Shown here: piece after piece, positions 4,459 through 33,280 of the stretch | How the letters are laid out: each line of letters starts with the position of its first letter | Position numbering within the stretch: position 1 is the first letter of the stretch | Assembly (NCBI RefSeq): GCF_007991735.1 | Contig: NZ_BJYX01000033.1 | Span: forward strand, 1-35,433 | Source of the DNA: Terrabacter aerolatus | GTDB lineage: Bacteria > Actinomycetota > Actinomycetes > Actinomycetales > Dermatophilaceae | DNA length: 35,433 nt | Reading direction: 5' to 3' | Notes under the pieces: generated by a model | What the model was told of the DNA's origin: nothing | What the model saw: the letters and a program-made list of their open reading frames with translations, nothing else | Databases searched by the model: none | Made by a program: the position numbers and the translations under genes

Positions 4459-5693
4459 GGGGACGTGCCCCGCCGCAGCCGGTCGACGACCTCGGCGGTG
4501 AGGTGCACGTGCTTGATGGCGCGGCGGTGGTAGGTGTAGGCGACGTGCAGGTCGCCGTCGCGTCCGGGCAGCACCGAGGGATAGGACAGCTCGCGGTTGA
4601 GCCCGTCGCGCGAGTTGTTGGACATGCAGTAGCCGTCGCCGGTCTCGAGGTCGACGAGCACCGGCCAGGACCGTCCCTCGTCGGGGCTGAGGCCGAGGGT
4701 CATCGGTGCACGCGGCGCTCCCCAGAAGGCTGTCCGGCGCCCTTGGGCCTCAGCGGACTTCGGCGAGGGCTCGGCGACGACCGGGCCGTCGAGGCCGTCG
4801 ACGACGCCCTCGTCGTCGATCTCGTCGTAGAGCGACACGCGCCGCTCGGTGGCGTCGCGCGCCGAGCTCCGGTTCAGGACGAGCGCGACCTCTCCCCCGC
4901 CCATGGCGACGGCCTGGATCGAGGAGTTGTTGTTCGGCAGTCCGGTCGGGGTGGGCTCGGCCCACGTCAGACCGTCGTCGGTCGACGACGTCTCCCACAC
5001 GTGGTCGGCCCAGCGACTGCGGAAGCACGCCCAGAGCGAGCCGTCCTCTCGCACGACGATGTTCATGTGCACGCACCCCAGCGACCCGGGCACGGGCGCC
5101 TCTGCCCACGAGTCACCGCCGTCGTCACTCCACCACACGCTCGACGTGTCCTCGTTGCCGACCCACTTCTCGCCCGGCACGGTGACGCAGTTGAAGACGG
5201 GCAGCAGGATGCGTCGGCTCGCGAGCACGACAGGCGGCTGGCGCACGAAGACACCTCCCGCGTCCGTCGCGGGCAGCAGCACCGTCGGCGCCTCCCACGT
5301 CCGGCCGCCGTCGCGCGAGACGCGACGACGCACCTCGGACGTGTCCTGGTTGCCGGCGAGCTGCGCCGTGTAGAGCAGCCAGACCGCGCCGTCCGGCGCC
5401 GTGAAGAGCACGGGGTTCTGCTCCGATCGCGTCGGGTCGTCGCTGAGCGGCACCGGGTCCGACCACGCGTCGGCCCCGGACGGCATACGCGAGAGGTAGG
5501 CGGTGATGTCGCTGACGCCCTCCTGGGTGCCCCCGAACCAGACGCACGCGAGGTCGCCGTTCGGCAGCCACGCGAGGTTCGCCGCGTGGCACTGCACGGT
5601 GGGGGTGGGCAGGTATGCCGTGTGGCCGCCGCCGTCGCGTGCGCGCAGGACGCCGTCGGCGAGGATCGGGTCGGCGGACTCGGCGAGCGTCAC
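4455..5693 (-). CDS. Sialidase-fold (BNR_2) protein without signal peptide
   Basis: A 412-residue six-bladed propeller protein of the BNR_2/sialidase superfamily. Four Asp boxes (S-x-D-x-G-x-[TS]-W) are visible: SRDGGRTW, SDDGGDSW, STDDGLTW and SPDEGRSW. The N-terminal block HAANLAWLPNGDL followed by WFGGTQEG is typical of the cytoplasmic BNR_2 branch, not of secreted sialidases, and there is no signal peptide or anchor. Near the C-terminus, NNSRDGLNRELSYPS is another conserved block. The GTG start at 5693 overlaps the aldolase stop by four bases. In this operon it may hydrolyse or otherwise open an imported glycoside or acidic sugar, but sialic acid genes (nanA, nanE, nanK) are absent, so true sialidase activity is doubtful. 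The fold is secure; the reaction is unknown. Confidence 0.85.
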   Translation of the reverse strand: MTLAESADPILADGVLRARDGGGHTAYLPTPTVQCHAANLAWLPNGDLACVWFGGTQEGVSDITAYLSRMPSGADAWSDPVPLSDDPTRSEQNPVLFTAPDGAVWLLYTAQLAGNQDTSEVRRRVSRDGGRTWEAPTVLLPATDAGGVFVRQPPVVLASRRILLPVFNCVTVPGEKWVGNEDTSSVWWSDDGGDSWAEAPVPGSLGCVHMNIVVREDGSLWACFRSRWADHVWETSSTDDGLTWAEPTPTGLPNNNSSIQAVAMGGGEVALVLNRSSARDATERRVSLYDEIDDEGVVDGLDGPVVAEPSPKSAEAQGRRTAFWGAPRAPMTLGLSPDEGRSWPVLVDLETGDGYCMSNNSRDGLNRELSYPSVLPGRDGDLHVAYTYHRRAIKHVHLTAEVVDRLRRGTSP

Positions 5694-6493
5694 GACTCGC
5701 CCCGCGCCGCCCTGAGGTGGGCCGTGGCCGCCTGCTCGAGGTGGATGAGGTCGGAGCTGACGGTGACAAGGGTGAAGCCCTGGCCGAGGCGCTTGGAGGC
5801 CACCTCCCCGCTGGGCGTGTGGAACCCGGCCGCGATGCCGGCGTCCTCTGCTGCCTTGAGGATCCGTGCGACGGCGGCCTCGAAGACGTCGTCGACGGCG
5901 GGGTCGGTCGAGGTCGCGCCACCGACGGCCAGCCGCAGGTCGGACGGGCCGATGTAGAGGCCGTCGATGCCGGGCGTCGCTGCGATGGCCTCGACGTTCT
6001 CGAGGCCCTGCGGGGTCTCGATCATGGCCAGGACGACGGTCGCGGCGTTGGAGTCGGCCGGGTTGGGGCCGATCCGCAGCTGGGACCGCATCGGACCGTA
6101 CGAGCGGATGCCCTCGGGTCCGTACTTCGCGAAGGAGACGGCGCGGGCGGCGTCCTCGGCCGTGTTGACGAGCGGCACGATGACCCCGGCGGCTCCGGCG
6201 TCGAGCGCCTGCCCGATGAGGAAGGGGTCGTTGGCGCCGACCCGGACCATGCCGAGCGACTCGCCACCGGCGTCGACGGCCTGCATGCCGGAGAGGAGCC
6301 CCTTGTAGTCGAGCAGCCCGTGCTGGGCGTCGAAGCAGACGTAGTCGTAGCCGAGGCGGGCGAGCCGCTCCGTCGACACCGGGGAGTCGATGATGACCCA
6401 GTAGCCGACGATCGTCTCGCGGGACCTGAGCCGCCGCGCGTAGTCGAGCACTCGCTCGCGGCTGCGCTCGACGGCCGTCCCTCCGCCGCTCAT
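5690..6493 (-). CDS. HpcH/HpaI-family aldolase
   Basis: A class II, metal-dependent pyruvate aldolase of the HpcH/HpaI family, 267 residues, the usual length. It shows the FDAQHG block near residue 57 (family form V/F-D-x-E/Q-H), a region with PMRSQ, and MIETPQGLENVEAIA with GIDGLYIGPSDL, where the glutamate of MIE and the aspartate of PSD usually bind the metal. Family members cleave 2-keto-3-deoxy or 4-hydroxy-2-keto acids to pyruvate or a related keto acid plus an aldehyde. ATG 6493 overlaps the stop of the aldo/keto reductase gene (ATGA). An earlier in-frame start would run into that gene and was rejected. In the operon it most likely cleaves the sugar-acid skeleton; the exact substrate cannot be read from sequence. 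Confidence 0.88.
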   Translation of the reverse strand: MSGGGTAVERSRERVLDYARRLRSRETIVGYWVIIDSPVSTERLARLGYDYVCFDAQHGLLDYKGLLSGMQAVDAGGESLGMVRVGANDPFLIGQALDAGAAGVIVPLVNTAEDAARAVSFAKYGPEGIRSYGPMRSQLRIGPNPADSNAATVVLAMIETPQGLENVEAIAATPGIDGLYIGPSDLRLAVGGATSTDPAVDDVFEAAVARILKAAEDAGIAAGFHTPSGEVASKRLGQGFTLVTVSSDLIHLEQAATAHLRAARGES

Positions 6494-7515
6494 CGGTTGT
6501 ACCCCGGCATCGACCCGGCGATCGCCAGGCCTGCCTCGTCGCACGCGGCGACGACGTCGTCGGGGAGCGGACCGGCTTGTGCAGCAGTGATGTTGGCCTC
6601 CAGCTGGTGTGGTTTGGACCCGCCGAGCAGCACTGACGACACGACAGGCTTCGAGAGCAGCCAGCGCAGTGACAGCTCGGGCAGGGTGATGCCGGCCTCG
6701 GACGCGATGGCGCCGAGGGCCTCGATGACCGCGAACGTCTCGACGTTCCAGTAGCGGTCCTTGTACATCGACGCGAGCGCCGACGAGCCGAAGCGTCCCT
6801 CGCCCGGCGACTCGGCGAACGAGTGGCGTCCGGTGAGCAGGCCACCGCCGAGGGGGTTGTAGACGATCGTCGCGAGGCCCTTCGTCGTGGCGAACTCGGC
6901 GTACTCGGCCTCGATGCGCCGGGCGACGAGGTTGTAGAGCTGCTGCGCGAGGACGGGACGAGCGGTGCCCAGCGCGTCGCAGGCGGCGAAGACGTCACCG
7001 ATCTGCCAGGCGGAGTAGTTCGAGATGCCGATCGCGCGGACCTTGCCCGCGGTGACGAGGTCGTCGAGCGCGGCGACCGTCTCGGCGATCGGCACCGAGC
7101 GGTCCGGCTGGTGCAGGTAGTAGACGTCGACGTGGTCGGTGCGCAGTCGACGCAGACTCGCCTCCAGCGAGGAGCGCAGACCGGCCGCCGAGAGCAGTGG
7201 CGAAGAGCCGGCGTCGCCGGGGTAGATGCCCGCCTTGGTCGCGATGGTCACGGCGTCTCGCCGTCCCACGAGGATCTCGGCGAGCATCTCCTCGCTGCGA
7301 CCCGCGGCATACCCGTTGGCGGTGTCGATCGAGGTGATCCCGGCCTCGATCGCGGTGTCGACCATGGTGCGGGCCGTGTCGACGTCGACGGTGTCGCCGA
7401 ACGTCATCGTGCCGAGCACGAGACGCGAGAGCGGGCGGGCGAGCCCCGGCAGGTCGAGCGTGGGCAGGTCGCGCGTGGGCAGGGTCGTGCTGCTCTGGGT
7501 GGTCGGGCTCGTCAT
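6490..7515 (-). CDS. Aldo/keto reductase
   Basis: A 341-residue NADP(H)-dependent aldo/keto reductase with a (beta/alpha)8 barrel. The catalytic tetrad is visible in order: Asp and Tyr in SIDTANGY (near residues 60-67), Lys in TIATKAG (near 93) and His in YYLHQPD (near 130). AIGISNYSAWQ follows, and the cofactor-binding block LLGGSKP is near the C-terminus, of the YajO/Tas-like type. ATG 7515 overlaps the stop of the upstream ATPase gene (ATGA). In the context of a transporter, an aldolase and an SDR enzyme, it probably oxidises or reduces an aldose or keto intermediate. The direction and substrate are inference. Confidence 0.92.
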   Translation of the reverse strand: MTSPTTQSSTTLPTRDLPTLDLPGLARPLSRLVLGTMTFGDTVDVDTARTMVDTAIEAGITSIDTANGYAAGRSEEMLAEILVGRRDAVTIATKAGIYPGDAGSSPLLSAAGLRSSLEASLRRLRTDHVDVYYLHQPDRSVPIAETVAALDDLVTAGKVRAIGISNYSAWQIGDVFAACDALGTARPVLAQQLYNLVARRIEAEYAEFATTKGLATIVYNPLGGGLLTGRHSFAESPGEGRFGSSALASMYKDRYWNVETFAVIEALGAIASEAGITLPELSLRWLLSKPVVSSVLLGGSKPHQLEANITAAQAGPLPDDVVAACDEAGLAIAGSMPGYNR

Positions 7516-11074: not shown

Positions 11075-11110
11075 GGGATCACCTGGAGGTGGGCGGGTCG
11101 GCGGACCCGG

Positions 11111-12834: not shown

Positions 12835-12985
12835 ACCTGTAGCGTTTTTTGTGAAAGGCGGGTGAGCGTATGCCGTCCGGCACGGTCACAAGGGTTCGCC
12901 CGACGCCTTTCAGCTCCACCGGCAAGGTCGCCAAAGTCCTTGCTGCACAATGATTTATCCGGACAGCACGCAGCGAGGAGGAGAC

Positions 12986-14272
12986 ATGAGCGCACCGGTT
13001 CTGGGCATCGTCGCCGATGACCTCAGCGGCGCCGCAGAGAGCGCATCACACCTGCTGTTGCGCGTTTCGCGCAACAGCGTCGTTCTCATCGCCTCCAACT
13101 CGTCCGGCGACCCGTCCATCTCCGCGCAGCCCGACGACGTCCTCACGGTAGACACCGACTCCCGCAGGCTCGACGCAGCGGACGCGGTGCGCGCGGTACG
13201 CGCAGCCGCAGCCCTCGTGGCCGGCGCGCCGGTCGTCGTCAAGAAGGTGGACTCCCTGCTGCGCGGCCACCTGGCCGCCGAGGTCGCTGCCCTCGCGGAC
13301 GAGCTGGGCCGCACACCGGTCGTGGCCGTGGCCAACCCAGCCCTCGGTCGCGTCGTGCGCGACGGCGTGCTCCACGTCGGCGACACGCCCCTGCACGAGA
13401 CCGACCTGTGGGACGTCGAGCCGACCGCGGCCCCGTCCCGGGTCGCCGAGGCGCTGCACCCGCTGCCCACCGTGCTCGTCCCGCACACCGTCGTCGCACT
13501 CGGGGTCGACGCCGTCGCCGGCGCCCTGACCGAGGCCACCACGGCCGGTCTCCTCGCGGTGTGCGACGCCGTCACCGAGAGCGACCTCGCGGTCGTTTAC
13601 GAGGCGGCCACCCGGGGCCGTGACGCGCTGCTCGTCGGGTCCGGCGCCCTGGCAGCCGTCGCCGCGGCCGCCCTCCCGGTCGGTGACCGGCGGCCCGGAC
13701 CGGACCTCGAGGCACCGATGGCCCGCTCGCTGCTGCTCGTGCTCGGCACGCGCGCCAGCGTGGTCCCCGCCCAGCTCGAGCAGGTGGCAGCTGCGCGCCG
13801 GGCGCACGTCGTGCTCGTGCAGCCCGAGCTGCTGCTCTCCGCTCCCGGCGACCCGGTCGCCGTGCTGGCCGGGCTGCCGCGCGACGGCGTCGTCGTCGTC
13901 GCCCTCGACCCGACAGCCCCCGCCGACCCCAGGCGGTCCCGCGCGCTCACCGAGGCCCTTGCCGATGCGGTCGCGCCGCTGCTCGACGACTACGACGCTG
14001 CGTTCCTGTCCGGAGGCGAGACCGCACGCGCCGTGCTCGACCGGGTCGGCGCCGGCTCCCTCGACGTCATCGACGCCGTCGAGCACGGCACCGTCGTGAG
14101 CCGTCGTCCCGGCGGCCGCCTCGTCGTGACCCGCCCGGGCAGCTTCGGCGGCCCGTCCTCCCTCGTCCGCGTCGCGGAGCACCTGCTCGACCGTCCCACG
14201 CCCCATTCGCCCGAAACGACTCACACCGCAACCCGCGCCGCCCCCGGCGCGACCACCGAGGAGAACTCATGA
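12986..14272 (+). CDS. Four-carbon acid sugar kinase (DUF1537 family; DtnK/OtnK-like)
   Basis: A 428-residue kinase. The N-terminal domain opens with GIVADDLSGAAES, the DUF1537 substrate-domain motif (usually DDxTGA), followed by VDTDSR and VKKVDSLLRGHLAAE near residues 80-95. The C-terminal nucleotide-binding domain shows FLSGGETARAVL near 346-357 and TRPGSFGGPSSL near 382-393. Characterised members phosphorylate D-threonate, L-threonate, D-erythronate or 3-oxo-tetronate at O-4 with ATP. GAGGAG before ATG 12986 fixes the start. The stop overlaps the pdxA-like ATG (ATGA), so the kinase and the dehydrogenase that uses its product are coupled. The coding sequence carries a second copy of the putative operator at 13058-13074. 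The neighbouring PdxA2 favours D-threonate or D-erythronate as substrate. Confidence 0.9.
   Translation: MSAPVLGIVADDLSGAAESASHLLLRVSRNSVVLIASNSSGDPSISAQPDDVLTVDTDSRRLDAADAVRAVRAAAALVAGAPVVVKKVDSLLRGHLAAEVAALADELGRTPVVAVANPALGRVVRDGVLHVGDTPLHETDLWDVEPTAAPSRVAEALHPLPTVLVPHTVVALGVDAVAGALTEATTAGLLAVCDAVTESDLAVVYEAATRGRDALLVGSGALAAVAAAALPVGDRRPGPDLEAPMARSLLLVLGTRASVVPAQLEQVAAARRAHVVLVQPELLLSAPGDPVAVLAGLPRDGVVVVALDPTAPADPRRSRALTEALADAVAPLLDDYDAAFLSGGETARAVLDRVGAGSLDVIDAVEHGTVVSRRPGGRLVVTRPGSFGGPSSLVRVAEHLLDRPTPHSPETTHTATRAAPGATTEENS
13054..13078. promoter_or_regulatory. Perfect 11-bp inverted repeat containing the second TTGCG-N7-CGCAA site
   Basis: GCTGTTGCGCG, then TTT, then its exact reverse complement, 69 bases into the kinase gene. 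The inner 17 bases keep the TTGCG-N7-CGCAA arrangement of the intergenic site 241 bases away. It could be a downstream operator (looping or roadblock) or an RNA hairpin. Confidence 0.6.
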
Positions 14273-15276
14273 GCGCCGCCCTTCCCCGCATCGCCGTGAC
14301 CATGGGAGACGGCGCCGGCATCGGCCCGGAGATCATCGTCAAGGCCCTGGCCGACCCGCACGTCGCGACCATGGCGCGCACCGTCGTCGTCGGGGACGCA
14401 CTGCGCCTCAAGCAGGCCGCGGCCGTCGCGGACGTCGCCGTCGACATCGTCACCATCGACGACGTCGAGCAGGCGAGCGAGATCCCGGGGCGCATCAACG
14501 TCATCGACCTGGCCCTACTCCCGGCGGACCTGCCCTTCGGGCAGCTGTCCGCGGTCGCCGGCGACGCGGCATACCACTACATCCGGGTCGCGGCCGATCT
14601 CGCGATGGCCGGCCAGGTGCAGGCCATCTGCACGGCCCCGCTCAACAAGGAGGCGCTGCACGCCGGCGGCCACGTCTTCCCCGGCCACACCGAGCTGCTC
14701 GCCCACCTCACCGGCACGCCCGAGGTGTCGATGATGCTCTCGACCGAGCGGGTCAAGGTCATCCACGTCACGACCCACATCGGCCTCATCGACGCCGTCA
14801 ACCGCATCGAGCCGGGCCTCGTCGAGCGGGTCATCCGCCGCGGCCACCGGGCGCTCGTCGACGCCGGCAACCCCACCCCGAAGATCGGCGTGTGCGGCAT
14901 CAACCCGCACGCCGGCGAGAACGGCCTCTTCGGCTACGGCGAGGAGGAGTCGAAGATCAACCCCGCGATCGAGGTCTGCCGCGCGGACGGCATCGACGTG
15001 CACGGCGCCCTCCCGGCCGACACGCTCTTCTTCCTCGCCGGCCGTGGCGACTACGACCTCGTCGTCGCGATGTACCACGACCAGGGCCACGGGCCGGTCA
15101 AGGTGCTCGGCCTCGAGGCCGGGGTCAACGTCACCATCGGGCTGCCCGTCATCCGTACGTCCGTCGACCACGGAACGGCGTTCGACATCGCCGGCACCGG
15201 CATCGCCGACCACCGGTCGATGATCGAGGCCCTTCGACTCGGCGCGGAGATGGCGCCGCGGCCCGTCGACGCCTAA
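14269..15276 (+). CDS. pdxA2: PdxA2-type 4-phospho-D-threonate/erythronate dehydrogenase
   Basis: A 335-residue member of the PdxA isocitrate/isopropylmalate dehydrogenase-like family. The N-terminus TMGDGAGIGPEII is diagnostic. Metal-binding histidines occur in FPGHTELLAHLTG (near 141), VTTHIGLID (near 166) and AMYHDQGHGPVK (near 270). TAPLNKEALHAGG and GINPHAGENGLFG are further family blocks. In pyridoxal synthesis PdxA acts on 4-hydroxy-L-threonine phosphate. The PdxA2 branch, found next to DUF1537 kinases, oxidises and decarboxylates 4-phospho-D-threonate or -erythronate to dihydroxyacetone phosphate. Coupling to the kinase gene by a four-base overlap makes the catabolic role much more likely here. 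Confidence 0.9.
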   Translation: MSAALPRIAVTMGDGAGIGPEIIVKALADPHVATMARTVVVGDALRLKQAAAVADVAVDIVTIDDVEQASEIPGRINVIDLALLPADLPFGQLSAVAGDAAYHYIRVAADLAMAGQVQAICTAPLNKEALHAGGHVFPGHTELLAHLTGTPEVSMMLSTERVKVIHVTTHIGLIDAVNRIEPGLVERVIRRGHRALVDAGNPTPKIGVCGINPHAGENGLFGYGEEESKINPAIEVCRADGIDVHGALPADTLFFLAGRGDYDLVVAMYHDQGHGPVKVLGLEAGVNVTIGLPVIRTSVDHGTAFDIAGTGIADHRSMIEALRLGAEMAPRPVDA

Positions 15277-15277
15277 G

Positions 15278-16075
15278 GTGCCCAGCGTGGCGAAGCACAC
15301 CGCACAGACGCGTCGGGGCGAGATCGTCCGCCTCGCCACCACCAGTGGGCTCGCGAGCGTGGAGGAGCTCTCCGACCAGCTCGGGGTCACGGCATCGACG
15401 ATCCGGCGCGACCTCGCCAAGCTGACGGCACAGGGCAAGCTCGCCCGCACCTACGGCGGGGTGATGAGCCTCGCGCACCACCCGGAGGCCTCGCTGCGCC
15501 AGCGCCTCGGCGAGGCCCACGCGGCCAAGCGGGACATCGCGCGGTGGGCCGCCGACCAGATCGAGCCCGGCGAGACGGTGCTCCTCGACGCCGGGTCGAC
15601 GATGGGAGCCCTCGCGGACGCCATCACCAAGACGCCCGAGCTGACCGAGCTGACCGTCGTCACCGCGGGAATCAGCGCCATGGTCACCCTCACCGACAGT
15701 GTCGGCATCGACGTCATCGCCCTCGGCGGCCGGCTGCGGCCGCTCAGCCAGGCCTTCGTCGGACCGCTCGCCGAGGCCGCGGTGCAGCGCCTCAGCTTCG
15801 ACCGGGCCTTCATGGGCGCCGACAGCGTGCACGCCGAGCGCGGCATCTGCGAGGCCGACCTCGAGCAGACCCGGCTCAAGGAGCTGATGATGAGCCGGGC
15901 CGAGCACACCTACGTCCTCGCACACGCCGACAAGCTCGGCCAGAGCCCCTTCCACGCCTGGGCCGTCATGCCGCGCGCGTGGACGCTGGTGACCGACGAG
16001 TCCGCCGATCCCTCTGCGTTGCAAGCGTTCCGCGACAACGGCATCGAGGTCGTCGTCGCACCCCGGCGCGACTGA
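15278..16075 (+). CDS. DeoR/GlpR-family transcriptional regulator
   Basis: A 265-residue repressor-type protein. The N-terminal winged helix shows ASVEELSDQLGVTASTIRRDL then GKLARTYGGV near residues 25-62, the textbook DeoR signature. The sensor domain has LDAGSTMGALADAI near 107, VVTAGISAM, IALGGRLRPLSQAFVGPLAE and FMGADSVHAERGI, the sugar-phosphate-binding fold of DeoRC. The GTG at 15278 begins one base after the pdxA2 stop; a second GTG at 15287 is an alternative. DeoR proteins usually sense phosphorylated sugars, so a phospho-tetronate or dihydroxyacetone phosphate is a sensible inducer. The two TTGCG-N7-CGCAA sites are its candidate targets. Confidence 0.92.
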   Translation: MPSVAKHTAQTRRGEIVRLATTSGLASVEELSDQLGVTASTIRRDLAKLTAQGKLARTYGGVMSLAHHPEASLRQRLGEAHAAKRDIARWAADQIEPGETVLLDAGSTMGALADAITKTPELTELTVVTAGISAMVTLTDSVGIDVIALGGRLRPLSQAFVGPLAEAAVQRLSFDRAFMGADSVHAERGICEADLEQTRLKELMMSRAEHTYVLAHADKLGQSPFHAWAVMPRAWTLVTDESADPSALQAFRDNGIEVVVAPRRD

Positions 16076-16081
16076 GAGCGG

Positions 16082-16116
16082 GCGTATGCCGCGTGGCCCG
16101 GCCACTCGGCATACGC
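16082..16116. terminator. Bidirectional terminator hairpin built from an inverted CGGCATAC pair
   Basis: GCGTATGCCG at 16082-16091 pairs with CGGCATACGC at 16107-16116. Inside, GTGGC-CCG-GCCAC extends the stem after one mismatch. It sits 6 bases after the deoR stop and lies between convergent genes. The arms are two copies of the window-wide word CGGCATAC. Confidence 0.7.
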
Positions 16117-16229
16117 GCCCCACCCACGGGTGCGCCTCCACGGCGGGAGTGCGCCTTCCGCGCCACACTGGTGGGACAGACCCGCACCCGTGACGCGAGC
16201 GCGCACTCCTGACCGGACCTGGCCCGGTC

Positions 16230-18659
16230 TCAGTCCTCGACGACGGTCGTCATGACCCAGTCGCGCACCTCGGGCATGTCCTCGAGGTGCTCGACGATGT
16301 AAGCGTGATGTCTGGCGAGCTTGGCCTCGCACCAGGTCTTGAGCTCGCTCGACCCGCGCACCTGGCGGCCGGCGTTGTTGATGGCGTCCATGACGAGGGA
16401 GTATCGGTCGACGCCGTTGCGCACGACCATGTCGAAGGGCGTCGTCGTCGTGCCCTCCTCGCTGAAGCCGCGCACGTGGAAGCGGTCGGCATCGGGGCGG
16501 CCGTGAACGAGCTGGTGGATGGCGCCGTGGTAGCCGTGGAAGGCGAAGACGACGTCGACGTGGTCGGTGAAGAGCTCCCCGAAGCGCACGTCGTCCATGC
16601 CGTGCGGGTGGCTGCGCGCCCGGGGCAGGGTCATGAGGTCGACGACGTTGACGACGCGGACCCGTAGCTGCGGCAGTCTCTTCCTGAGGATCTGTGCCGC
16701 GGCCACGACCTCCATCGTCACGACGTCGCCGGCGCAGGCGAGCACCACGTCGGGGTCGCGGTCCCCGTCGTCCGTGCCGGCCCAGTCCCAGATGCCGGCC
16801 CCGGCCGCGCAGTGCGCGATGGCCTCGTCCATCGTCAGCCACTGCGGCTGCGGCTGCTTGTCGATGACGACGAGGTTGACGTAGTTCTTCGACCGGAAGC
16901 AGTGGTCGGCAACGGACAGAAGGCAGTTCGCGTCCGGCGGCAGGTAGATGCGGGCCACCTCGCCGCGGGCGTTGAGGACGGTCTGGATGAGCCCGGGTCC
17001 CTGGTGCGAGAACCCGTTGTGGTCGTTGCGCCACGCCGTCGACGTCAGCAGGATGTTGAGGCTCGGCACCTTGGCCCGCCACTCGAGCTTGTTGGCCTCC
17101 TGGAGCCACTTGCTGTGCTGCACCGTCATCGACGCGCTCACCATGGCGAACGCCTCGTACGTCGCGAAGAGCCCGTGCCTCCCGGTCAGGGTGTAGCCCT
17201 CGAGCCAGCCGTGGCAGGAGTGCTCCGAGAGCACCTCCATGACGCGGCCCTCGTGCGAGAGCTTCTCGTCCTGCTCGAGCACGCGCTCGGCCGTCATCCG
17301 GTCCGAGACGTCGAAGACGGCGCCGACCCGGTTGCTGTTGGTCTCGTCGGGGCTGAAGAGCCGGAACGTCGTCGGGTTGCGCACGTAGAGCTCGCGCATC
17401 AGCTCGCCGATCGCACGCGTCGACTCCTCGCGCACGGACGCCGGGGACGGCACGTCGCGGGCGTAGTCCCGGAAGTCGGGGAGGTCGAGCTCGGTCGTCA
17501 GGCGGCCACCGTTCGCGTGCGGCGAGGCGCTCATGCGCAGATCACCCGCCGGGTTGGCCTGCAGCACCAGCTCGGTGGGTCTGCCCGACTCGTCGAAGAG
17601 CTCCTCCGGCCGGTAGGAGCGCAGCCACGTCTCGAGGACCGCGAGGTGCTCGGGGTTCTCCTTGACGCCCGACAGCGGCACCTGGTGCGAGCGCCACGAC
17701 CCGGTGACCGGGATGCCGTCGACCTCCACCGGCCCGGTCCACCCCTTCGGGGTCCGCAGCACGATGAGGGGCCACCGCGGCCGCTCCCCCAGCGTCCAGC
17801 CGTCCGCCCTGGCCTCCTGTTGGATCTCGCGGATGCGGTCGTATGCCGTCGCCAGCGTCTGCGCGAAGCGCTCGTGCATGCCGGGCACGTCGTCACCCTC
17901 GACCTCGAGCACGTCGTAGCCGTGGCCCCCGAGGAGGCTGCGCACCTCGGCCGGGTCCTTGCGGCCGAGGACCGTCGGGCCGGCGATCTTGTAGCCGTTG
18001 AGGTGCAGGATCGGCAGCACGGCGCCGTCGCGTCGCGGGTTGAGGAACGATATGCCCTTCCACGAGCCCTCGAGCGGGCCGGTCTCGGCCTCGCCGTCGC
18101 CGACGACCGCCAGGGCCAGCAGGTCGGGGTTGTCCATGACGGCCCCGAAGGCGTGGACGAGGACGTAGCCGAGCTCGCCGCCCTCGTGGATCGACCCGGG
18201 CGTCGTCACGGAGACATGGCTCGGGATGCCGCCGGGCGAGGAGAACTGCCGGAAGAGCCGGCGCACTCCCTCGGCGTCGGCCGTCACCTTCGGGTAGATC
18301 TCGGAGTACGTGCCCTCGAGGTACCCGGCCGCGACGAGCGCCGGTCCGCCGTGCCCGGGGCCGGTGAGGTAGATCGTCTCCTGCCCCGTGTGCCGGATGA
18401 CCCGGGACATGTGGGTGTAGACGAACGACAGCCCCGGACTCGTGCCCCAGTGGCCCAGCAGGCGCGGCTTGATGTCGTCGGGCACGAGCGGACGTCGCAG
18501 GAGCGCGTTGTCCTGGAGGTAGATCTGTCCGATCGTCAGGAAGTTGTTGGCTCGCCACCACGCGTCCATCGACGCGATCTCGTCGGGGGTGGGAGCGGGC
18601 ACGGCAGCGGTCGTCCGGGTCTGGGTCGTCACGGCAGGGGCCTCTCGAGCGGTCGGCAT
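16230..18659 (-). CDS. xfp: Phosphoketolase (xylulose-5-phosphate/fructose-6-phosphate)
   Basis: A cytoplasmic thiamine-diphosphate enzyme of 809 residues, full length for the family. It splits xylulose 5-phosphate (and often fructose 6-phosphate) with phosphate into acetyl phosphate plus glyceraldehyde 3-phosphate or erythrose 4-phosphate. Family motifs: LLGHWGTSPGLSFVY near 67, GPGHGGPA at 100-107, SSPGGIPSH at 140-148, GDGEAETGP at 187-195 (cofactor pyrophosphate/Mg) and HLNGYKI near 219. In the C-terminal half GLFATYEAF and QGPGLIQ are present. ATG 18659 is used; GTG 18632, preceded by GAGAGG, would remove nine residues and is equally plausible. No acetate kinase or phosphate acetyltransferase gene is adjacent. 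It converges with the deoR gene and is probably a separate unit. Confidence 0.95.
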   Translation of the reverse strand: MPTAREAPAVTTQTRTTAAVPAPTPDEIASMDAWWRANNFLTIGQIYLQDNALLRRPLVPDDIKPRLLGHWGTSPGLSFVYTHMSRVIRHTGQETIYLTGPGHGGPALVAAGYLEGTYSEIYPKVTADAEGVRRLFRQFSSPGGIPSHVSVTTPGSIHEGGELGYVLVHAFGAVMDNPDLLALAVVGDGEAETGPLEGSWKGISFLNPRRDGAVLPILHLNGYKIAGPTVLGRKDPAEVRSLLGGHGYDVLEVEGDDVPGMHERFAQTLATAYDRIREIQQEARADGWTLGERPRWPLIVLRTPKGWTGPVEVDGIPVTGSWRSHQVPLSGVKENPEHLAVLETWLRSYRPEELFDESGRPTELVLQANPAGDLRMSASPHANGGRLTTELDLPDFRDYARDVPSPASVREESTRAIGELMRELYVRNPTTFRLFSPDETNSNRVGAVFDVSDRMTAERVLEQDEKLSHEGRVMEVLSEHSCHGWLEGYTLTGRHGLFATYEAFAMVSASMTVQHSKWLQEANKLEWRAKVPSLNILLTSTAWRNDHNGFSHQGPGLIQTVLNARGEVARIYLPPDANCLLSVADHCFRSKNYVNLVVIDKQPQPQWLTMDEAIAHCAAGAGIWDWAGTDDGDRDPDVVLACAGDVVTMEVVAAAQILRKRLPQLRVRVVNVVDLMTLPRARSHPHGMDDVRFGELFTDHVDVVFAFHGYHGAIHQLVHGRPDADRFHVRGFSEEGTTTTPFDMVVRNGVDRYSLVMDAINNAGRQVRGSSELKTWCEAKLARHHAYIVEHLEDMPEVRDWVMTTVVED

Positions 18660-18904
18660 CGTGCGTCCCGTCGAGCCTCACCGAGCCGGGAGGGTCCTGG
18701 CAAGGGGTCGGACGTCCCGATCCCGGCCACCCGGCATACGCCCTCGTGGATCGTCCCGGCACCTCAGGAAACCGTCACGGACTCTCATGGCCCCCTCGTC
18801 TCCCCCCAGGCCCGTCGTGGTCGCGGCGGGGTCGTCGTGGTCCGGTCGGGGACAGAGCAGTGGGCCGGCCCCCGTCGGGACCGACCCACCCCACTCCGGA
18901 AAGG

Positions 18905-22092: not shown

Positions 22093-22641
22093 GTGACCTG
22101 GCCCGTGCATGAGACCCGTGTCGTCTACGAGAACCCGTGGATCAGGGTGCGTGAGGATGCCGTGACCCGCCCGGACGGGAGCGACGGCATCTTCGGCGTC
22201 GTCGAGGTGCAGCGCCCCGCGGTCTTCGTCGTGGCCCTGACGGACGACGACGAGGTCGTGCTCGTCACCCTCGACCGCCACACCGTCGGCACGTCGGTCG
22301 AGGTCCCCGCCGGGGGCACCGACGGCGAGGACCCCCTCGTCGCGGCCCGGCGCGAGCTCGCCGAGGAGACGGGGCTCGTCGCCGGGAGCTGGCGGCAGGT
22401 GGGAACGATGAACGCCCTCAACGGCATCTGTCGAGCGCCGGAGGTGGTCTTCCTGGCGACGGACCTGTCGCCCGCACCCGACACCGACGACACCGCGGCC
22501 CGGCGCGAGGAGGGCATCCGCGACGTCCGCCCGGTCCCGCTCGCCGACGTGCTCGGCCTCGTCGCCGACGGCACCATCACCGACGGCGAGACGATCGCCG
22601 CCCTGATGTTCGCGCTCGTGGCGCTGGGGCGCGTCGCCTGA
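22093..22641 (+). CDS. Nudix hydrolase (ADP-ribose pyrophosphatase-like)
   Basis: A 182-residue hydrolase. The Nudix box is PAGGTDGEDPLVAARRELAE then ETGLV, with REL-x-EE-x-G intact and the first glycine-to-glutamate spacing one residue shorter than consensus. The leading strands (VYENPWIRVREDAVTRPDG, FGVVEVQRPAVFVVALTDDDEVVLV) match ADP-ribose/nucleoside-diphosphate-sugar pyrophosphatases. GTG 22093 is the first start in frame after the alkyltransferase gene; an ATG at 22073 is out of frame. The substrate is a nucleoside diphosphate linked to another group, but it is not identifiable further. It may belong to the repair operon, since the gap to the previous stop is 89 bases. Confidence 0.9.
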   Translation: MTWPVHETRVVYENPWIRVREDAVTRPDGSDGIFGVVEVQRPAVFVVALTDDDEVVLVTLDRHTVGTSVEVPAGGTDGEDPLVAARRELAEETGLVAGSWRQVGTMNALNGICRAPEVVFLATDLSPAPDTDDTAARREEGIRDVRPVPLADVLGLVADGTITDGETIAALMFALVALGRVA

Positions 22642-22787
22642 GCGGGGGCAGCCTCTCGGCCACACGGCATACCCCGCGAAAGAGCCGGCGGGCGGGTGCA
22701 ACGGTTCGGCCGTCCCATGTGTCCAAGGGGGTGTACGACACTGACACGTACGCGATCGGCACCAGCGACCGGAACCGGCAGGAGCTC

Positions 22788-23291
22788 ATGAGACGGAGGG
22801 ACGAGGCGGCGTTCCGCACCTTCGTGGAGGAGCGGCAGACGATGCTGCGCCGACGCGCCTACCTGCTCTGCGGCAACTGGGCCGACGGCGACGAGCTCGT
22901 CCAGGAGGCGCTGGCCCGCGTCTACGTCGCATGGCCCCGGATCGCCACCGGCGCGGAGACCGCCTACACGAGGCGCACGATGATGAACCTCTACCTCAAC
23001 GACCAGCGCAAGCGTCGCCGTGAGGTCCTGACCGACGAGGCTCCGGAGCCCCCGACGACCGACCACGACCGCGAGCTCGCGCTGACCCTGACCGACCTGC
23101 TGCACGACCTCCCCGAGAAGCAGCGCGCCGTGCTCGTGCTCCGCTTCTGGGAGGACCTCACGGTCCCCCAGATCGCCGAGTGCACCGGCGTCGCCGAAGG
23201 AACGATCAAGAGCCACATCTCGCGAGGCCTCGCCGCCCTGCGCGGCCGGCTCGCCGAACCGCCACTGACCGGGGCAGGAGCCTTGCCATGA
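22788..23291 (+). CDS. SigE-family ECF RNA polymerase sigma factor
   Basis: A 167-residue sigma factor of the actinobacterial SigE (SigE-like, Streptomyces-type) group. Region 2: FVEERQTMLRRRAYLLCGNWADGDELVQEALARVYVAW; region 4: LHDLPEKQRAVLVLRFWEDLTVPQIAECTGVAEGTIKSHISRGLAALR. AGGAG stands six bases before ATG 22788, the preferred start. An in-frame GTG at 22719 would add 23 residues. The stop overlaps the next gene by four bases (ATGA); that product has one membrane helix and is the probable partner. Members of this group usually respond to cell-envelope stress or govern niche functions. Confidence 0.9.
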   Translation: MRRRDEAAFRTFVEERQTMLRRRAYLLCGNWADGDELVQEALARVYVAWPRIATGAETAYTRRTMMNLYLNDQRKRRREVLTDEAPEPPTTDHDRELALTLTDLLHDLPEKQRAVLVLRFWEDLTVPQIAECTGVAEGTIKSHISRGLAALRGRLAEPPLTGAGALP

Positions 23292-24154
23292 GCGACGACA
23301 CGACGCGGGGTCAGGGCGCCGCTCCGGAGGAGGGCGAGCTGCAGCTGCGAAAGGCGCTGTCCACGATGAACGACCTCGAGCCACCTCGCGACGACCTCTT
23401 CGCCCAGCGTGCCCTGATGCGCGGCCGCGCCCGCACGTCCCGACGCCGCTCGACCCTCCTCGGCGCCGCGGCCGCCGTCGTGGTCGTCGGAGCCGTGGGC
23501 GGTGCGTGGGTGACCTTCGACCACGGAGCCTCGTCGACAACCGCGAGCGCGGGTTCCGCCGGGGTGCAGAAGGACTCGTCCGGCAGCGCGGTCCAGGGCA
23601 ACGGGTCCCGGGGCCCCGAGTCGCTCTCCGGGAACGGCGCGGGGGCCGTCCCTTCGGCGCCGCCCGCTCGCGACACGACCCGCTGGTTCGGCACCCTGTC
23701 GACCCCGCAGACCAATGCCTTCACCGCCATCGAGCCCACGGTGGCCTCACGCTGGCCGCAGGTCTTCTCGGGGGCGTATGCCGTCGACGCCGCGGGTGCC
23801 CGCGTGGCCGTCGTGGTCACCCGCCACGACCCCGGCCTCGAAGCCTTCGTCGCCCGGGCGATGCCGTCACCGACCGATGTGGAGTTCGTCGTCATGAGTC
23901 ATTCGCTCGAGGAGAAGCAGAGGGTCGCCAAGGAGATCGTCGACCAGCGAATGCTGTGGCGCTCCAAGGGAGTCCAGATCATCGCCGTCCAGCAGGATGC
24001 CCGCACGGACCAGGTGGTGGTCCTGGCCGACGAGGGCCCCTCGCCGGGTCTCGTCGAGCAGCAGTACGGCGACATCGTCCGCGTCGTCCCCACCACGCAG
24101 ACGGCCCCGGGCAGGCTGCCGGACGGGAGCACGCTGCCGCCCCTGCAGCAGTGA
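23288..24154 (+). CDS. Membrane-anchored putative sigma-factor partner, 288 residues
   Basis: The layout is cytoplasmic (about 1-55), one membrane helix (about 56-76, STLLGAAAAVVVVGAVGGAW), a Ser/Gly/Ala-rich linker (80-130) and an extracytoplasmic domain (135-288). The N-terminal segment is short and charged, as in anti-sigma proteins, but the zinc-finger motif HxxxCxxC is absent. The outer domain has mixed strands and helices and a proline-rich end (LPDGSTLPPLQQ); I do not recognise the fold. ATG 23288 overlaps the sigma-factor stop by four bases. By position this is most likely the anti-sigma factor or sensor, which is an inference from context; no family match supports it. Confidence 0.7.
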   Translation: MSDDTTRGQGAAPEEGELQLRKALSTMNDLEPPRDDLFAQRALMRGRARTSRRRSTLLGAAAAVVVVGAVGGAWVTFDHGASSTTASAGSAGVQKDSSGSAVQGNGSRGPESLSGNGAGAVPSAPPARDTTRWFGTLSTPQTNAFTAIEPTVASRWPQVFSGAYAVDAAGARVAVVVTRHDPGLEAFVARAMPSPTDVEFVVMSHSLEEKQRVAKEIVDQRMLWRSKGVQIIAVQQDARTDQVVVLADEGPSPGLVEQQYGDIVRVVPTTQTAPGRLPDGSTLPPLQQ

Positions 24155-25535: not shown

Positions 25536-25542
25536 CTTCACA

Positions 25543-25580
25543 CCAGAAGCGCCGCTCTCAGCAGAGAGCGGCGCTTCTGC
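25543..25580 (+). terminator. Strong hairpin after the tRNA pair
   Basis: A perfect stem of 15 bp (25544-25558 with 25565-25579), extended by a C-G pair next to the loop AGCA. It begins eight bases after tRNA-Asp. There is no T tract, but the stem is long and GC-rich. Confidence 0.8.
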
Positions 25581-25626
25581 CGTTCCGGGGCCGGCCGCGC
25601 CGCACCCGTCTCCTAGGGTGGGCTCC

Positions 25627-26583
25627 GTGCGGATCGCGGTGCTCGACGACTACCAGGGCGTGGCCCTGACCAGTGCGGACTGGTCGCCCGTCACCGACCG
25701 TCCCGGCTCGCCGTGCAGCGTCGACGTCTTCCGCGACCACGTCGGCGAGCCGGACGCCCTCGTGCGGCGGTTGGCCCCGTACGACGCGGTCGTCGTCATG
25801 CGCGAGCGCACGCCTCTGCCCGCAGAGGTGCTCGGGGCCCTCCCCCGCCTGCGCCTCGTCGTGACGACCGGCCGTCGCAACCCGAGCATCGACCTCGCGG
25901 CGGCCGCGGCGGCGGACATCACCGTGTGCGGCACCGACAGCCTGGCCACCGCTCCGGCCGAGCTGACGTGGGCGCTGGTCCTGGGGCTGGCCCGACGGCT
26001 CGTACCGGAGGCCACCGGCGTCCGCGAGGGCGGCTGGCAGACGACGGTGGGCCGTGACCTCGCCGGCCACACGCTGGGCCTGCTCGGCCTCGGGCGCATC
26101 GGCAGCCAGGTGGCGGCCGTCGGTCAGGCCTTCGGCATGGACGTCGTCGCCTGGAGTCGCAGCCTGACGCCCGAACGCGCCGGGGCCGTCGGCGTGCGCG
26201 CCGCGTCGCTCGACGAGGTGCTGACGGCGTCGGACGTCGTCTCGGTCCACCTCGTCCTCGCCGAGAGCACGCGCGGCCTGCTCGGCGAGCGCGAGCTGGC
26301 CCTCATGCGACCCGACGCCCTGCTCGTCAACACCTCTCGAGGGCCCATCGTCGACGAGGTCGCCCTGCTGGCAGCGCTCGAACGGGGTCACCTCGGCGGC
26401 GTGGGCCTCGACGTCTTCGACACCGAGCCGCTGCCGGCCGACCACCCGCTGCGCACCGCGCCCCGCACGCTCCTGACGCCGCACCTCGGCTATGTCACGC
26501 ACGACGTCTACGCGACGTTCTTCGGCGGCGTCGTCGAGGACCTGACGGCATACCTCGACGGCTCTCCCCTGCGCACCCTCTGA
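25627..26583 (+). CDS. D-isomer-specific 2-hydroxyacid dehydrogenase
   Basis: A 318-residue NAD(P)-dependent dehydrogenase acting between a 2-keto acid and a D-2-hydroxy acid. The cofactor motif is GLLGLGRIGSQVA (near 153-165). The catalytic triad regions are NTSRGPIVDE (Arg), VFDTEPLP (Glu) and LTPHLGYVT (His). The N-terminal half has the flanking substrate domain. GTG 25627 is chosen because the upstream extension runs through the tRNA-Asp gene and its terminator. The true substrate (glycerate, lactate, phosphoglycerate or other) is not defined. Its 3' end converges with the PucR gene with only 32 bases between. Confidence 0.92.
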   Translation: MRIAVLDDYQGVALTSADWSPVTDRPGSPCSVDVFRDHVGEPDALVRRLAPYDAVVVMRERTPLPAEVLGALPRLRLVVTTGRRNPSIDLAAAAAADITVCGTDSLATAPAELTWALVLGLARRLVPEATGVREGGWQTTVGRDLAGHTLGLLGLGRIGSQVAAVGQAFGMDVVAWSRSLTPERAGAVGVRAASLDEVLTASDVVSVHLVLAESTRGLLGERELALMRPDALLVNTSRGPIVDEVALLAALERGHLGGVGLDVFDTEPLPADHPLRTAPRTLLTPHLGYVTHDVYATFFGGVVEDLTAYLDGSPLRTL

Positions 26584-26615
26584 ACCGAGGGCGTATGCCG
26601 TCCGCCCGGTCGCGC

Positions 26616-27863: not shown

Positions 27864-27885
27864 GTCGGCCTCCAGCAAATTGTCG

Positions 27886-27908
27886 TGACGCAACAGTTTC
27901 TCGCGTCA
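27886..27908. promoter_or_regulatory. Candidate operator TGACGC-N11-GCGTCA
   Basis: A perfect 6+6 inverted repeat with an 11-base spacer, midway between the divergent PucR and ferredoxin reductase genes. Its position suits a site controlling both promoters. PucR is the obvious candidate to bind it. Confidence 0.5.
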
Positions 27909-27962
27909 AAGAGTACGCGTCGCCCCAAGACGTGCGGACCCTGTGAACACCATGATGGAACC

Positions 27963-29033
27963 ATGACCCAGTTCCGTGCTCTCCGACGTGTGGCGTCGAT
28001 CCTGACGACCCCGCGCGAGCCCGAGGACTTCCTCAACCTCGTCAACCCGCTCTCGTCGGCGCGCCAGCTGCGCGGCGTCGTGACCAAGGTGGTCCGCGAG
28101 ACCGCCGACTCCACGACGATCCACTTCCGACCGGGCCGCGGGTGGAACCCCCACGCCGCCGGCCAGTGGGCCCGCATCGGCGTCGAGATCGACGGCGTGC
28201 GCCAGTGGCGCAGCTACTCGCTCTCGGCCGCCGTCGGGCACGACCCGGCCATCACGGTCACCGCGATCGGCTACGTCTCGACGGCGCTGGCACGCGACAC
28301 CAAGGTCGGCGACATCCTCTTCCTCGACACCCCGCAGGGCGACTTCGTGCTCCCCGAGCACCCCAGGCCCCTGCTCATGCTGACGGCCGGCAGCGGCCTG
28401 ACGCCGGTCATGTCGATGATCCGCACGCTCGTGCCGCGTCGACCCGACGCCGACGTCGTGCTCGTGCACTCCGCGCGGACCCGCGACGAGGCCCTCTTCC
28501 ACGACGAGCTGCTCGAGCTCGCCGACCAGTTCCCCGGCCTCACCGTCAGGCACTGGTTCACCCGCGAGGAGGGCGCCAGGCGCCTCGACCTCTCGGACGT
28601 CACCGACCTCGAGACGCTGTGTCCCGACTGGCGCGAGCGCGCGGCATACGCCTGCGGTCCGACCGACTTCCTCGACGCGGCCACCGAGCTGTGGCTGCAC
28701 GACGGGGACGACGCCACCCACACCAACCTCACCATCGAGCGCTTCGCGCCCGTCCTGCTGGAGGGATCCGGCGGGGAGGGCGGACTGCTGACGTTCGAGA
28801 AGTCCGACAAGGAGGTGGAGGCGGGCGGCGACGTCCCCCTCCTCGAGGCCGGCGAGGACTGCGGCGTCGTCATGCCGAGCGGATGCCGCATGGGCATCTG
28901 CCGCAGCTGCCTCGTGCCGCTCGTCGCGGGCAGGGTCCGCGACCTGCGCACCGGTGAGGTGCACGGCGACGAGGGCGAGCTCATCCAGACCTGCGTCAAC
29001 GCGGCCGCCGGACCTGTCCACCTGGACATCTGA
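27963..29033 (+). CDS. Ferredoxin reductase with C-terminal [2Fe-2S] domain
   Basis: A 356-residue flavin/iron-sulfur electron-transfer protein of the type that serves acyl desaturases (compare Rv3230c with DesA3 in Mycobacterium tuberculosis). The FAD site is RSYS at 83-86, the NADPH site TAGSGLTPVMS at 141-151. Plant-type iron-sulfur ligands are Cys308, Cys313, Cys316 and Cys344 (C-x4-C-x2-C-x27-C). It passes electrons from NAD(P)H to the desaturase encoded 13 bases downstream. ATG 27963 has a weak ribosome-binding site; nearby ATGs at 27952 and 27955 are out of frame. No membrane helix is evident. Confidence 0.93.
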   Translation: MTQFRALRRVASILTTPREPEDFLNLVNPLSSARQLRGVVTKVVRETADSTTIHFRPGRGWNPHAAGQWARIGVEIDGVRQWRSYSLSAAVGHDPAITVTAIGYVSTALARDTKVGDILFLDTPQGDFVLPEHPRPLLMLTAGSGLTPVMSMIRTLVPRRPDADVVLVHSARTRDEALFHDELLELADQFPGLTVRHWFTREEGARRLDLSDVTDLETLCPDWRERAAYACGPTDFLDAATELWLHDGDDATHTNLTIERFAPVLLEGSGGEGGLLTFEKSDKEVEAGGDVPLLEAGEDCGVVMPSGCRMGICRSCLVPLVAGRVRDLRTGEVHGDEGELIQTCVNAAAGPVHLDI

Positions 29034-29046
29034 GAAGGGAACCACC

Positions 29047-30333: not shown

Positions 30334-31024
30334 CGCCGGGGCACGACCGGTCCCCACGGCCGCCTTCTTCGACCTCGACCGCACCCTGATCCGCGGGTCC
30401 GCCAACTACCCCCTGGCGATCGCGGCCTTCCGCGGCGGCCACGTGCCGTGGAGGGACCTCGTCAAGGACACCGTCAACGCGATCTCCTTCCACCGCAAGG
30501 GATCCACCGACGAGGGCTCGGAGGCGCTGCGCGAGCGCATCCTCCGGGCCGTGGCGGGCATCCCGCAGTCCGACATCATCCACCTCACCGACGCGATCGT
30601 GCCGGGCATCGTGCGCAAGGCGATCCCGGCCTCGATGGGCCTGCTGTCCGAGGCACGCGAGGTCGGGCACGACCGCATCGTCGTCTCGGCCTCTCCCATC
30701 GAGCTCGTCAGCCGCATCGCGACGGCGCTCGGGCTCGAGGGCGCCGTCGCCACCCGCAGCGAGCTCGACGAGCAGGGCCGCTACACCGGTCACCTCACGG
30801 GCGAGTTCTGCTACGGCGCGGGCAAGGTCGTCGAGATCGAGAAGCTCGCCGCCGAGCGCGGCTACGACCTCGACCGGTGCGCCGCCTACAGCGACTCGAT
30901 CAGCGACCTGCCGATGATGGAGCGCGTCGGCACGGCGGTCGCCGTCAACCCCGACGGTGAGCTGCGCGAGGTGGCCCGGGAGCGCGGCTGGCGCGTCGTC
31001 GAGGTCGGCCGCAAGCGCCACTGA
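30323..31024 (+). CDS. HAD-IB family phosphatase (SerB-like)
   Basis: A 233-residue soluble hydrolase. Motif I is FFDLDRTL with nucleophile Asp17 and Asp19; motif II is VVSASP; motif III has the lysine in GAGKVVEIE; motif IV is YSDSISDLPMM. The helical cap is between motifs I and II. The HAD-IB subfamily includes phosphoserine phosphatases and lysophosphatidic or glycerol-phosphate-type phosphatases. Its start (GTG 30323) overlaps the desaturase gene by 11 bases, so a role in membrane-lipid metabolism (for example a lipid head-group phosphatase) is plausible; that is inference from context. Confidence 0.88.
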   Translation: MSGDAGARPVPTAAFFDLDRTLIRGSANYPLAIAAFRGGHVPWRDLVKDTVNAISFHRKGSTDEGSEALRERILRAVAGIPQSDIIHLTDAIVPGIVRKAIPASMGLLSEAREVGHDRIVVSASPIELVSRIATALGLEGAVATRSELDEQGRYTGHLTGEFCYGAGKVVEIEKLAAERGYDLDRCAAYSDSISDLPMMERVGTAVAVNPDGELREVARERGWRVVEVGRKRH

Positions 31025-31040
31025 CCCCCACCACCCCCTC

Positions 31041-31110
31041 GCAACACACCGAGCAGTCGCCAACCCCTGCGGCTACAACCGCAGTGGTTGGCGACTGCTC
31101 GGTGTGTTGC
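31041..31110. repeat. Long perfect inverted repeat between convergent genes
   Basis: Two exact 25-base arms (31041-31065 and 31086-31110) with an inner hairpin CTGCGG-CTACAA-CCGCAG in the loop. The outer flanks (CCCCCT and GGGGGA) pair as well. It lies between the HAD gene and the GuaB1 gene, where a bidirectional terminator is needed. At over 60 bases it is far longer than an ordinary terminator and may be a repetitive extragenic palindrome. Confidence 0.85.
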
Positions 31111-31143
31111 GGGGGAAGAGGGCGGGGGTGCGGGCGGGCGAGG

Positions 31144-33218
<2,075 letters not shown>

Positions 33219-33234
33219 GCAGCCCGCCACGTCG

Positions 33235-33280
33235 GTTCGAGGTGTCGGCGCGCCACCCGGCGCGACGGCATACCTCGAAC
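33235..33280. terminator. Bidirectional hairpin containing CGGCATAC
   Basis: Outer stem GTTCGAGGT (33235-33243) with ACCTCGAAC (33272-33280). Inner stem CGCGCC-ACCC-GGCGCG. It is placed between convergent genes. CGGCATAC (33266-33273) forms part of the 3' side. Confidence 0.65.

Follow-up and report, generated by a model that had tools for sequence, protein, structure and literature searches.

The 8-mer CGGCATAC is likely a DNA uptake sequence of a Terrabacter-like actinobacterium, as judged from genomic data. It was noticed in a stretch of 35,433 nucleotides of Terrabacter aerolatus (hereafter the window), i.e., the entire contig C33 of a draft genome of 4.42 Mb. The uptake idea had been raised in a preliminary description of the window; most of the genomic tests run support it, inferentially. 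The following evidence fits the idea: (i) enrichment; (ii) a patchy distribution; (iii) dialects with a common core; (iv) no polarity; (v) the presence of com and tad genes; (vi) some depletion in foreign-looking DNA. What is directly seen is the enrichment, which does not depend on codon use, together with the patchy distribution, the dialects, and the com and tad loci. A non-palindromic word with thousands of exact copies, little excess of one-base variants, a placement driven by tolerance, mixed dialects and repeated loss argues, on these grounds, for a DNA uptake sequence system of Actinomycetota.

Over-representation of the word

The window contains 16 copies of CGGCATAC, while 100 dinucleotide shuffles give a mean of 0.56 and at most 4. 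The over-representation claimed for the window is real, and it is much stronger genome-wide. The genome-wide count that had been proposed as a check gives 2,163 copies (1,091 + 1,072) in 4.42 Mb vs. 195 for the reversed, non-complemented word used as control, i.e., a short non-palindromic word is present in a thousand copies or more, far above composition.

In a 435 kb sample of the same genome the word is seen 244 times, vs. 6.8, 11.4 and 68.5 copies expected from Markov models of order 2, 3 and 4, respectively. The excess stands through order 4 and fades beyond it: the observed/expected ratio is 1.4 at order 5 and 1.0 at order 6, because such models hold almost all of CGGCATAC. In the sample, most single-base variants are at or below, or near, expectation, and variants altered at positions 1-4 are found in 0-5 copies each. 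The exceptions are CGGCATCC (92 vs. 47 expected), CGGCCTAC (44 vs. 25) and CGGCATAG (11 vs. 4). The preferred context is A-CGGCATAC-GNC, with weak flank preferences: A precedes the word in 52% of cases and T is nearly excluded there, G follows directly in 57%, and C is the third letter after the word in 68%.

Word versus codon usage

The codon control covers ~513 kb, i.e., the 435 kb sample plus four loci of 18-20 kb. The commonest reading of CGGCATAC in genes is nnG-TAT-GCC-Gnn (110 of 169 coding sites). TAT is rare overall: 195 TAT vs. 2,382 TAC. In the context G-TAy-GCC-G, 124 of 150 tyrosine codons are TAT; this share falls to 2 of 25 when the last letter is not G, to 13 of 84 when the first letter is not G and to 47 of 2,163 when the codon that follows does not encode alanine. 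In other words, 124 of the 195 TAT codons examined fall inside CGGCATAC. The same holds for the other frame, in which the rare GCA is used before TAC in 44 of 93 cases when CG comes first and in 4 of 240 otherwise.

When the synonymous codons of the genes in the 435 kb sample are shuffled, 8.0 coding copies are obtained vs. 168 seen, and CGGCATAC is the top word. Both controls bear out the earlier statement that codon bias does not explain the word: the word itself is favoured, not codon usage. It must be noted that CGAGCAGC/GCTGCTCG also displays a moderate excess in genes under this shuffle (283 vs. 108.6 in T. aerolatus), found as well in the samples of G034, G032 and G055, i.e., in genomes with or without an uptake word.

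Distribution in the family and order

A set of 186 genomes of the family, from 53 genera, was used, a carrier being defined by at least 0.1 copies of CGGCATAC per kb. The distribution is bimodal: 108 genomes are carriers, 62 have less than 0.03 copies per kb and 16 are in between. All genomes are carriers in 25 genera and non-carriers in 16; 12 genera are mixed or intermediate. Non-carriers are found within carrier genera: G126 (19 copies; 1,062 and 3,681 in its congeners), G065 (37; 1,251-1,660 in its congeners) and G150 (50; 394-1,901 in 30 other congeners). In 22 genomes from other families of the order, the CGGCATAC spelling always stays below 0.1 per kb.

The nearest ComEC relatives among the 80 named matches listed are those of Terrabacter sp. 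Root85 (88%) and Terracoccus sp. 273MFTsu3.1 (86%), labelled Intrasporangiaceae by NCBI, a group which we take to be the Dermatophilaceae of GTDB. A ComEC tree was built from 40 loci picked from these 80, the carrier state being read from ~12-21 kb per genome. Its well-supported branches require the carrier state to switch at least 5 times. The label clusters only to some extent, with 10 changes vs. a shuffled mean of 13.2 (24 of 500 shuffles are as low).

Dialects

For the discovery of dialects, 14-120 kb were read from each genome poor in CGGCATAC, and two of the words obtained were confirmed by counts in whole genomes. CGGCATCC is present in 2,099-4,480 copies in 7 of the 186 genomes (G024, G071, G034 and G082-G085; 0.69-1.25 per kb). 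Weaker cases are G009 (1,336 copies) and G190 (1,210), with 0.35-0.38 per kb; elsewhere, values are ~0.1-0.25 per kb. CCGCATAC is present in 511-1,204 copies in all four genomes of genus g21; the highest counts outside g21 are 476 (G139), 459 (G026), 433 (G019), 428 (G141) and 365 (g69). Genus g54 contains both CGGCATAC and CGGCATCC, as expected of a genome under rewriting: 1,217/2,195 and 1,189/2,099 copies, respectively, in two genomes, and 361/4,480 and 288/3,619 in two others. CGGCATTC, the top word alongside CGGCATAC in one locus of a Phycicoccus metagenome-assembled genome (MAG; L150), is probably a further dialect.

The synonymous shuffle was also applied to relatives, with gene calls from a model trained on the T. 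aerolatus genome. CGGCATCC is observed 63 times vs. 9.6 in G034, 25 vs. 6.0 in G024 and 37 vs. 10.5 in G009, and CCGCATAC 23 times vs. 1.1 in G028. In G055, which belongs to another family of the order, the 11-letter CGAGGCATCCG is present in 23 copies in 80 kb (L269-L272), and its sub-word AGGCATCC 27 times vs. 1.4; CGAGGCATCCG is probably a second uptake-type word, outside the family. In all five spellings, CGGCATAC to CGAGGCATCCG, GCAT is kept and is followed by one variable letter, then C, i.e., relatives have dialects that share a conserved core. In G055, the part-word GAGGCATCC also occurs in close pairs, 18-24 bases apart.

No word of similar strength is found under the shuffle in the non-carriers G016, G017, G018 and G021, and no dialect word in the 20 kb read from each of G126, G065 and G150. 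Several candidates were considered weak: (i) CGGCGTAC in G031 and G032; (ii) CGGCATCC in a Humibacillus MAG (12 vs. 2.5) and in a Tetrasphaera MAG (11 vs. 1.3 with the Markov model, outside the top six words of the shuffle), 13-21 kb only being available; (iii) CCGCATAC in Nostocoides F2B08 (L162; one locus, 5 vs. 0.7 under the shuffle); (iv) GGCGTCCG in two Propionibacteriaceae. GGCGTCCG is in excess under the shuffle in a Propionibacterium MAG (L211; 39 vs. 11.8) and in Propioniciclava sinopodophylli (L216; 32 vs. 10.4), and may be a distant dialect or something else. The top words of the G031 shuffle (e.g., CAGTTCGA, 28 copies in L037) come mostly from one 20 kb stretch and were set aside as an apparent local repeat.

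Placement and strand

Placement was counted on the 435 kb sample with our own simple gene calls. The word is present at 169 sites in genes (0.43/kb) and at 70 between genes (1.51/kb), and 5 sites lie across gene ends. The intergenic density is 2.9/kb between convergent, 1.4/kb between tandem and 0.9/kb between divergent genes. In genes, 121 sites are oriented against the gene and 48 along it. The strands are used 94:86 over 320 contiguous kb of contig C1, taken without reference to the origin; therefore there is no polarity along those 320 kb, nor a strand bias of the type of Chi or of the FtsK orienting polar sequences (KOPS). The gaps between sites look slightly more even than random (coefficient of variation 0.86).

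Site conservation and foreign-looking DNA

The comEC region of T. aerolatus contains nine sites, counted anew in each pairwise comparison. Every aligned site is retained in two close relatives of 85-86% identity (5 of 5 and 6 of 6), vs. 42% and 47% of control 8-mers of equal G+C. Three genomes from another two genera (78-79%) retain 3 of 7, 5 of 6 and 6 of 8 sites, vs. 26-28% of the controls. As a separate observation, the comEC domain with 1.5 kb on each side contains 5 copies of the word in 17 carrier loci of 3.8 kb (by eye; among L050-L074), i.e., a density well below those of the genomes.

Depletion in acquired DNA had been suggested for the window and was looked for in 17 small contigs of T. 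aerolatus, read up to 20 kb each, with a split by G+C content at third codon positions (GC3) made after seeing the numbers. Four of them were excluded: two had an intermediate GC3 (together 3 sites in 16.9 kb), one had no called genes and one reads N. The six contigs of low GC3 contain 10 sites in 70.8 kb (0.14/kb), vs. 46 in 98.8 kb (0.47/kb) for the seven typical ones. By eye, the former carry a relaxase (matched to MobF), a resolvase, transposases and a catabolic cluster. The relaxase of MobF type matches at least 5000 plasmid records, and none of the 50 matches listed is from the family. Contig C42 (L229, 15.9 kb) contains, by eye, a cluster of CoA-transferase, acyl-CoA and MmgE/PrpD-like genes and no CGGCATAC; this cluster looks like an acquired catabolic island.

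Phage portal (PF04860) and TerL (PF03354) are nearly absent, by these two models, from the mostly carrier genomes searched: the former is matched in 1 of 24 genomes and the latter in 1 of 21, with 26.7 bits only. Around this weak TerL match there are 17 words in 40 kb, i.e., about half the density of that genome, and the 6.5 kb contig with the portal match contains none; both markers are too rare for a test.

Competence machinery and receptor candidates

The com and tad pilus genes that the preliminary description proposed to look for are encoded in the T. aerolatus genome: ComEC, ComEA and three tad loci. The gene comEA (helix-hairpin-helix HHH_3 + SLBB) adjoins comEC. A tad-1-like locus encodes a TadA-type ATPase, two T2SSF proteins, TadE and a TadE/G-like protein, and adjoins apparent prfB and ftsE genes (by eye). 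A tad-2-like locus encodes a TadA-type ATPase and a small DUF4244 pilin-like protein, and the third locus contains Flp pilins. Competence machinery like that of Micrococcus luteus is thus encoded; transformation of M. luteus needs comEC and both tad clusters (PMC4322843, in excerpt).

PilM, a marker of the type IVa pilus, is matched in 2 of 36 family genomes searched, weakly in G028 and also in G033. Since comEC is present in 57 of 58 genomes searched, ComEC does not discriminate carriers and was rejected as the discriminating receptor factor. The ATPases of the type II secretion system/Tad type were rejected likewise (present in 12 of 12 genomes searched).

A small secreted protein with a lamin-tail domain (LTD) is encoded directly after the tad-1-like locus (L119:14961-15419). 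Similarly high-scoring LTD frames are observed in 8 genomes of the same genus and in G015, G024 and G034. As a receptor candidate it was not retained: short frames with a single LTD are also present in the non-carriers G016, G017, G031 and G032.

Proposed mechanism and comparison with known systems

Uptake, receptor and drive are the parts of the explanation that we infer. Competent cells would pull in DNA via a Tad/Flp pilus and a ComEA-ComEC channel. At the cell surface, a protein that binds DNA, perhaps a minor pilin of the Tad type, would grip DNA bearing the word more tightly than other DNA, and the incoming DNA would recombine into the chromosome. Alleles bearing the word would enter more often, and the word would accumulate where selection tolerates it (molecular drive), most between genes. 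With a shift in receptor preference, the genome would slowly be rewritten to a new spelling, i.e., a dialect; once the system is lost, the word would decay.

On balance it appears probable that Actinomycetota have uptake systems of separate origin, with a receptor on a Tad/Flp pilus, three or more spellings (probably four) built on the core GCAT(A/C/T)C within one family, the 11-letter CGAGGCATCCG in another family of the order, and dialect shifts and losses within genera that act as barriers to recombination between species. To our knowledge, self-recognition in DNA uptake has so far been established in two Gram-negative families. If high-GC Gram-positives have it too, with another type of pilus, it is likely to have evolved more than once. 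The debate on drive vs. benefit as the origin of uptake words would gain an independent case, with dialects caught in the middle of a change. Practical handles would be the choice of likely competent strains, the design of transforming DNA and natural gain/loss pairs for finding the receptor. No earlier report of a DNA uptake sequence system in Actinomycetota was found in the part of the openly readable literature that was searched, and a 2025 review names Neisseria as the exception requiring a DNA uptake sequence (DUS) (PMC12236230, in excerpt).

The present system would work like the DUS of Neisseria, apparently without its pilus, and by the pilus it would not be a member of the Neisseria family of systems. 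The two have in common a short non-palindromic word in thousands of copies, dialects that differ by one or a few letters around a common core, family genomes without any word and genomes of mixed dialect (PMC3630211, in excerpt). They differ in phylum and in word (CGGCATAC here, GCCGTCTGAA there). Moreover, the PilM test indicates no type IVa pilus here, while in Neisseria the receptor, ComP, belongs to that pilus as a minor pilin. Inverted pairs, too, are rare here.

The uptake signal sequence (USS) of Pasteurellaceae is a 9-letter word with ~1,300 copies in H. influenzae (PMC5217627, in excerpt) and has two dialects with a common core (PMC12616744, in excerpt); its word and machinery are different, and the extended USS has AT-rich flanks (PMC12616744), vs. 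only weak flank preferences here. The machinery was also compared with that of Flp/Tad transformation in M. luteus, with two tad loci and comEA/comEC (PMC4322843). Its counterpart in T. aerolatus is a tad locus with TadE-type genes, another with the small pilin-like protein, and comEA/comEC; one tad locus more, the third, is present in T. aerolatus and not in M. luteus. In the portion of the M. luteus transformation literature searched, "uptake sequence" is not mentioned as a phrase.

Points against an uptake sequence

Several results weigh against an uptake sequence. The machinery is not tied to the word: at the loci read, both carriers and non-carriers have tad genes, genomes that lack the word also encode com and tad genes, and no receptor was found. 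Within 10 kb of comEC, no gene family distinguishes the 18 carriers from the 8 non-carriers compared (lowest p 0.20; 26 loci, i.e., L122 of T. aerolatus and 25 chosen from the 80). Short frames with a single LTD are missing from many carriers, and the LTD gene beside tad-1 does not track the word. Machinery common to carriers and non-carriers is as expected if only the specificity differs. In the T. aerolatus genome PilM (PF11104) has no match, i.e., by this marker the type IVa pilus of the Neisseria receptor ComP is missing (ComP itself was not searched for).

Other points concern conservation and depletion. Site conservation in other directions of comparison, between more distant pairs, is mixed, e.g., 6 of 13 sites are kept in one case (29% of controls) and 1 of 5 in another (20% of controls). 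The depletion in foreign-looking contigs is moderate and was grouped post hoc, and gene by gene the trend is weak: with falling GC3, densities are 0.42, 0.43 and 0.27 per kb, then 0 in 663 bases. The word is indeed absent from the window edges (1-5480 and 33274-35433), which had been described as accessory, but this absence is weak alone and not significant by itself (Poisson 0.055 and 0.32 at the sampled density).

Inverted pairing, presented earlier as a habit shared with Neisseria, does exist but concerns a minority of sites. Pairs within 60 bp were counted in 608,670 bases of T. aerolatus (323 sites; small contigs of low GC3 left out): there are 13 close pairs vs. 8.8 expected, a total barely above chance, of which 8 are in (-,+) order vs. 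~2.2 expected (one fourth of 8.8). Twenty named carrier loci contain 15 pairs vs. 12.4 expected, 8 of them in (-,+) order. G015 and G030 have 3 and 1 pairs vs. 3.8 and 1.3 expected, one in (-,+) order.

Alternative explanations

The methylation and nucleoid-protein alternatives, already mentioned in the preliminary description, seem less likely than uptake. A DNA methyltransferase or repair system could keep an iterated word in the manner proposed for cyanobacterial HIP1, methylation at the word protecting it or steering mismatch repair. Such a system would likewise yield genome-wide enrichment, and HIP1 is, like CGGCATAC, a hugely over-represented 8-mer, linked to orphan methyltransferases (PMC4390886, in excerpt). 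HIP1 (GCGATCGC) is, unlike CGGCATAC, a palindrome, and CGGCATAC has dialects. This explanation, although no search for a methyltransferase was made, is unlikely, as relatives alter single positions within the word, two genomes of one genus hold two spellings at high numbers, and the word is scarcer in foreign-looking contigs. The binding site of a chromosome-organising or segregation protein, or a recombination signal of Chi type, is another candidate. Such motifs are 8-mers at roughly the present density, and close relatives retain the word near comEC more often than they retain control 8-mers. The lack of strand bias (94:86), the absence of the word from related genera and from single species within carrier genera, and the variation of spelling between relatives make a role of this kind quite improbable.

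It is extremely improbable that the word is a by-product of codon usage, composition, repeats or adapter carry-over. The word does lie in a common Illumina adapter, and it is contained in an adapter-type primer printed in one paper; four 13-letter adapter forms are nevertheless found in 0 copies in 608,670 bases of T. aerolatus. Neither Markov models to order 4 nor the synonymous shuffle explain the word, the rare TAT is preferred in its context only, and 108 of 186 family genomes are enriched.

Copies of the word in the window

The 16 positions reported earlier are all correct, and GGCATAC is preceded by C in 16 of 16 cases, as had been stated. Of the 16 copies, 7 fall between genes by our own simple gene calls, and all of these but one follow the end of at least one gene, again in line with the preliminary description; the exception is 12868..12875 (-), with divergent genes on either side. 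The sites 18732..18739 (+) and 22665..22672 (+) are between tandem genes, the latter past the stop of gene 22093-22641. The sites 26593..26600 (-) and 33266..33273 (+) are between convergent genes.

The other sites lie within genes. Gene 4455-5693(-) contains two of them, 5481..5488 (+) and 5613..5620 (-). Further sites on the + strand are 7305..7312 in gene 6490-7515(-), 14567..14574 in gene 14269-15276(+), 26546..26553 in gene 25618-26583(+), close to its 3' end, 28642..28649 in gene 27990-29033(+) and 31242..31249 in gene 31144-32586(-). On the - strand, 17841..17848 is in gene 16230-18632(-) and 23776..23783 in gene 23288-24154(+).

The intergenic sites 16084..16091 (-), between convergent genes, and 16107..16114 (+) are the left and right arms of an inverted pair that had been described as a terminator. 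Its role as a terminator is not established because no U-run follows; it does form a strong hairpin (16080..16118), with -31.1 kcal/mol for 16070-16125 (z -3.2).

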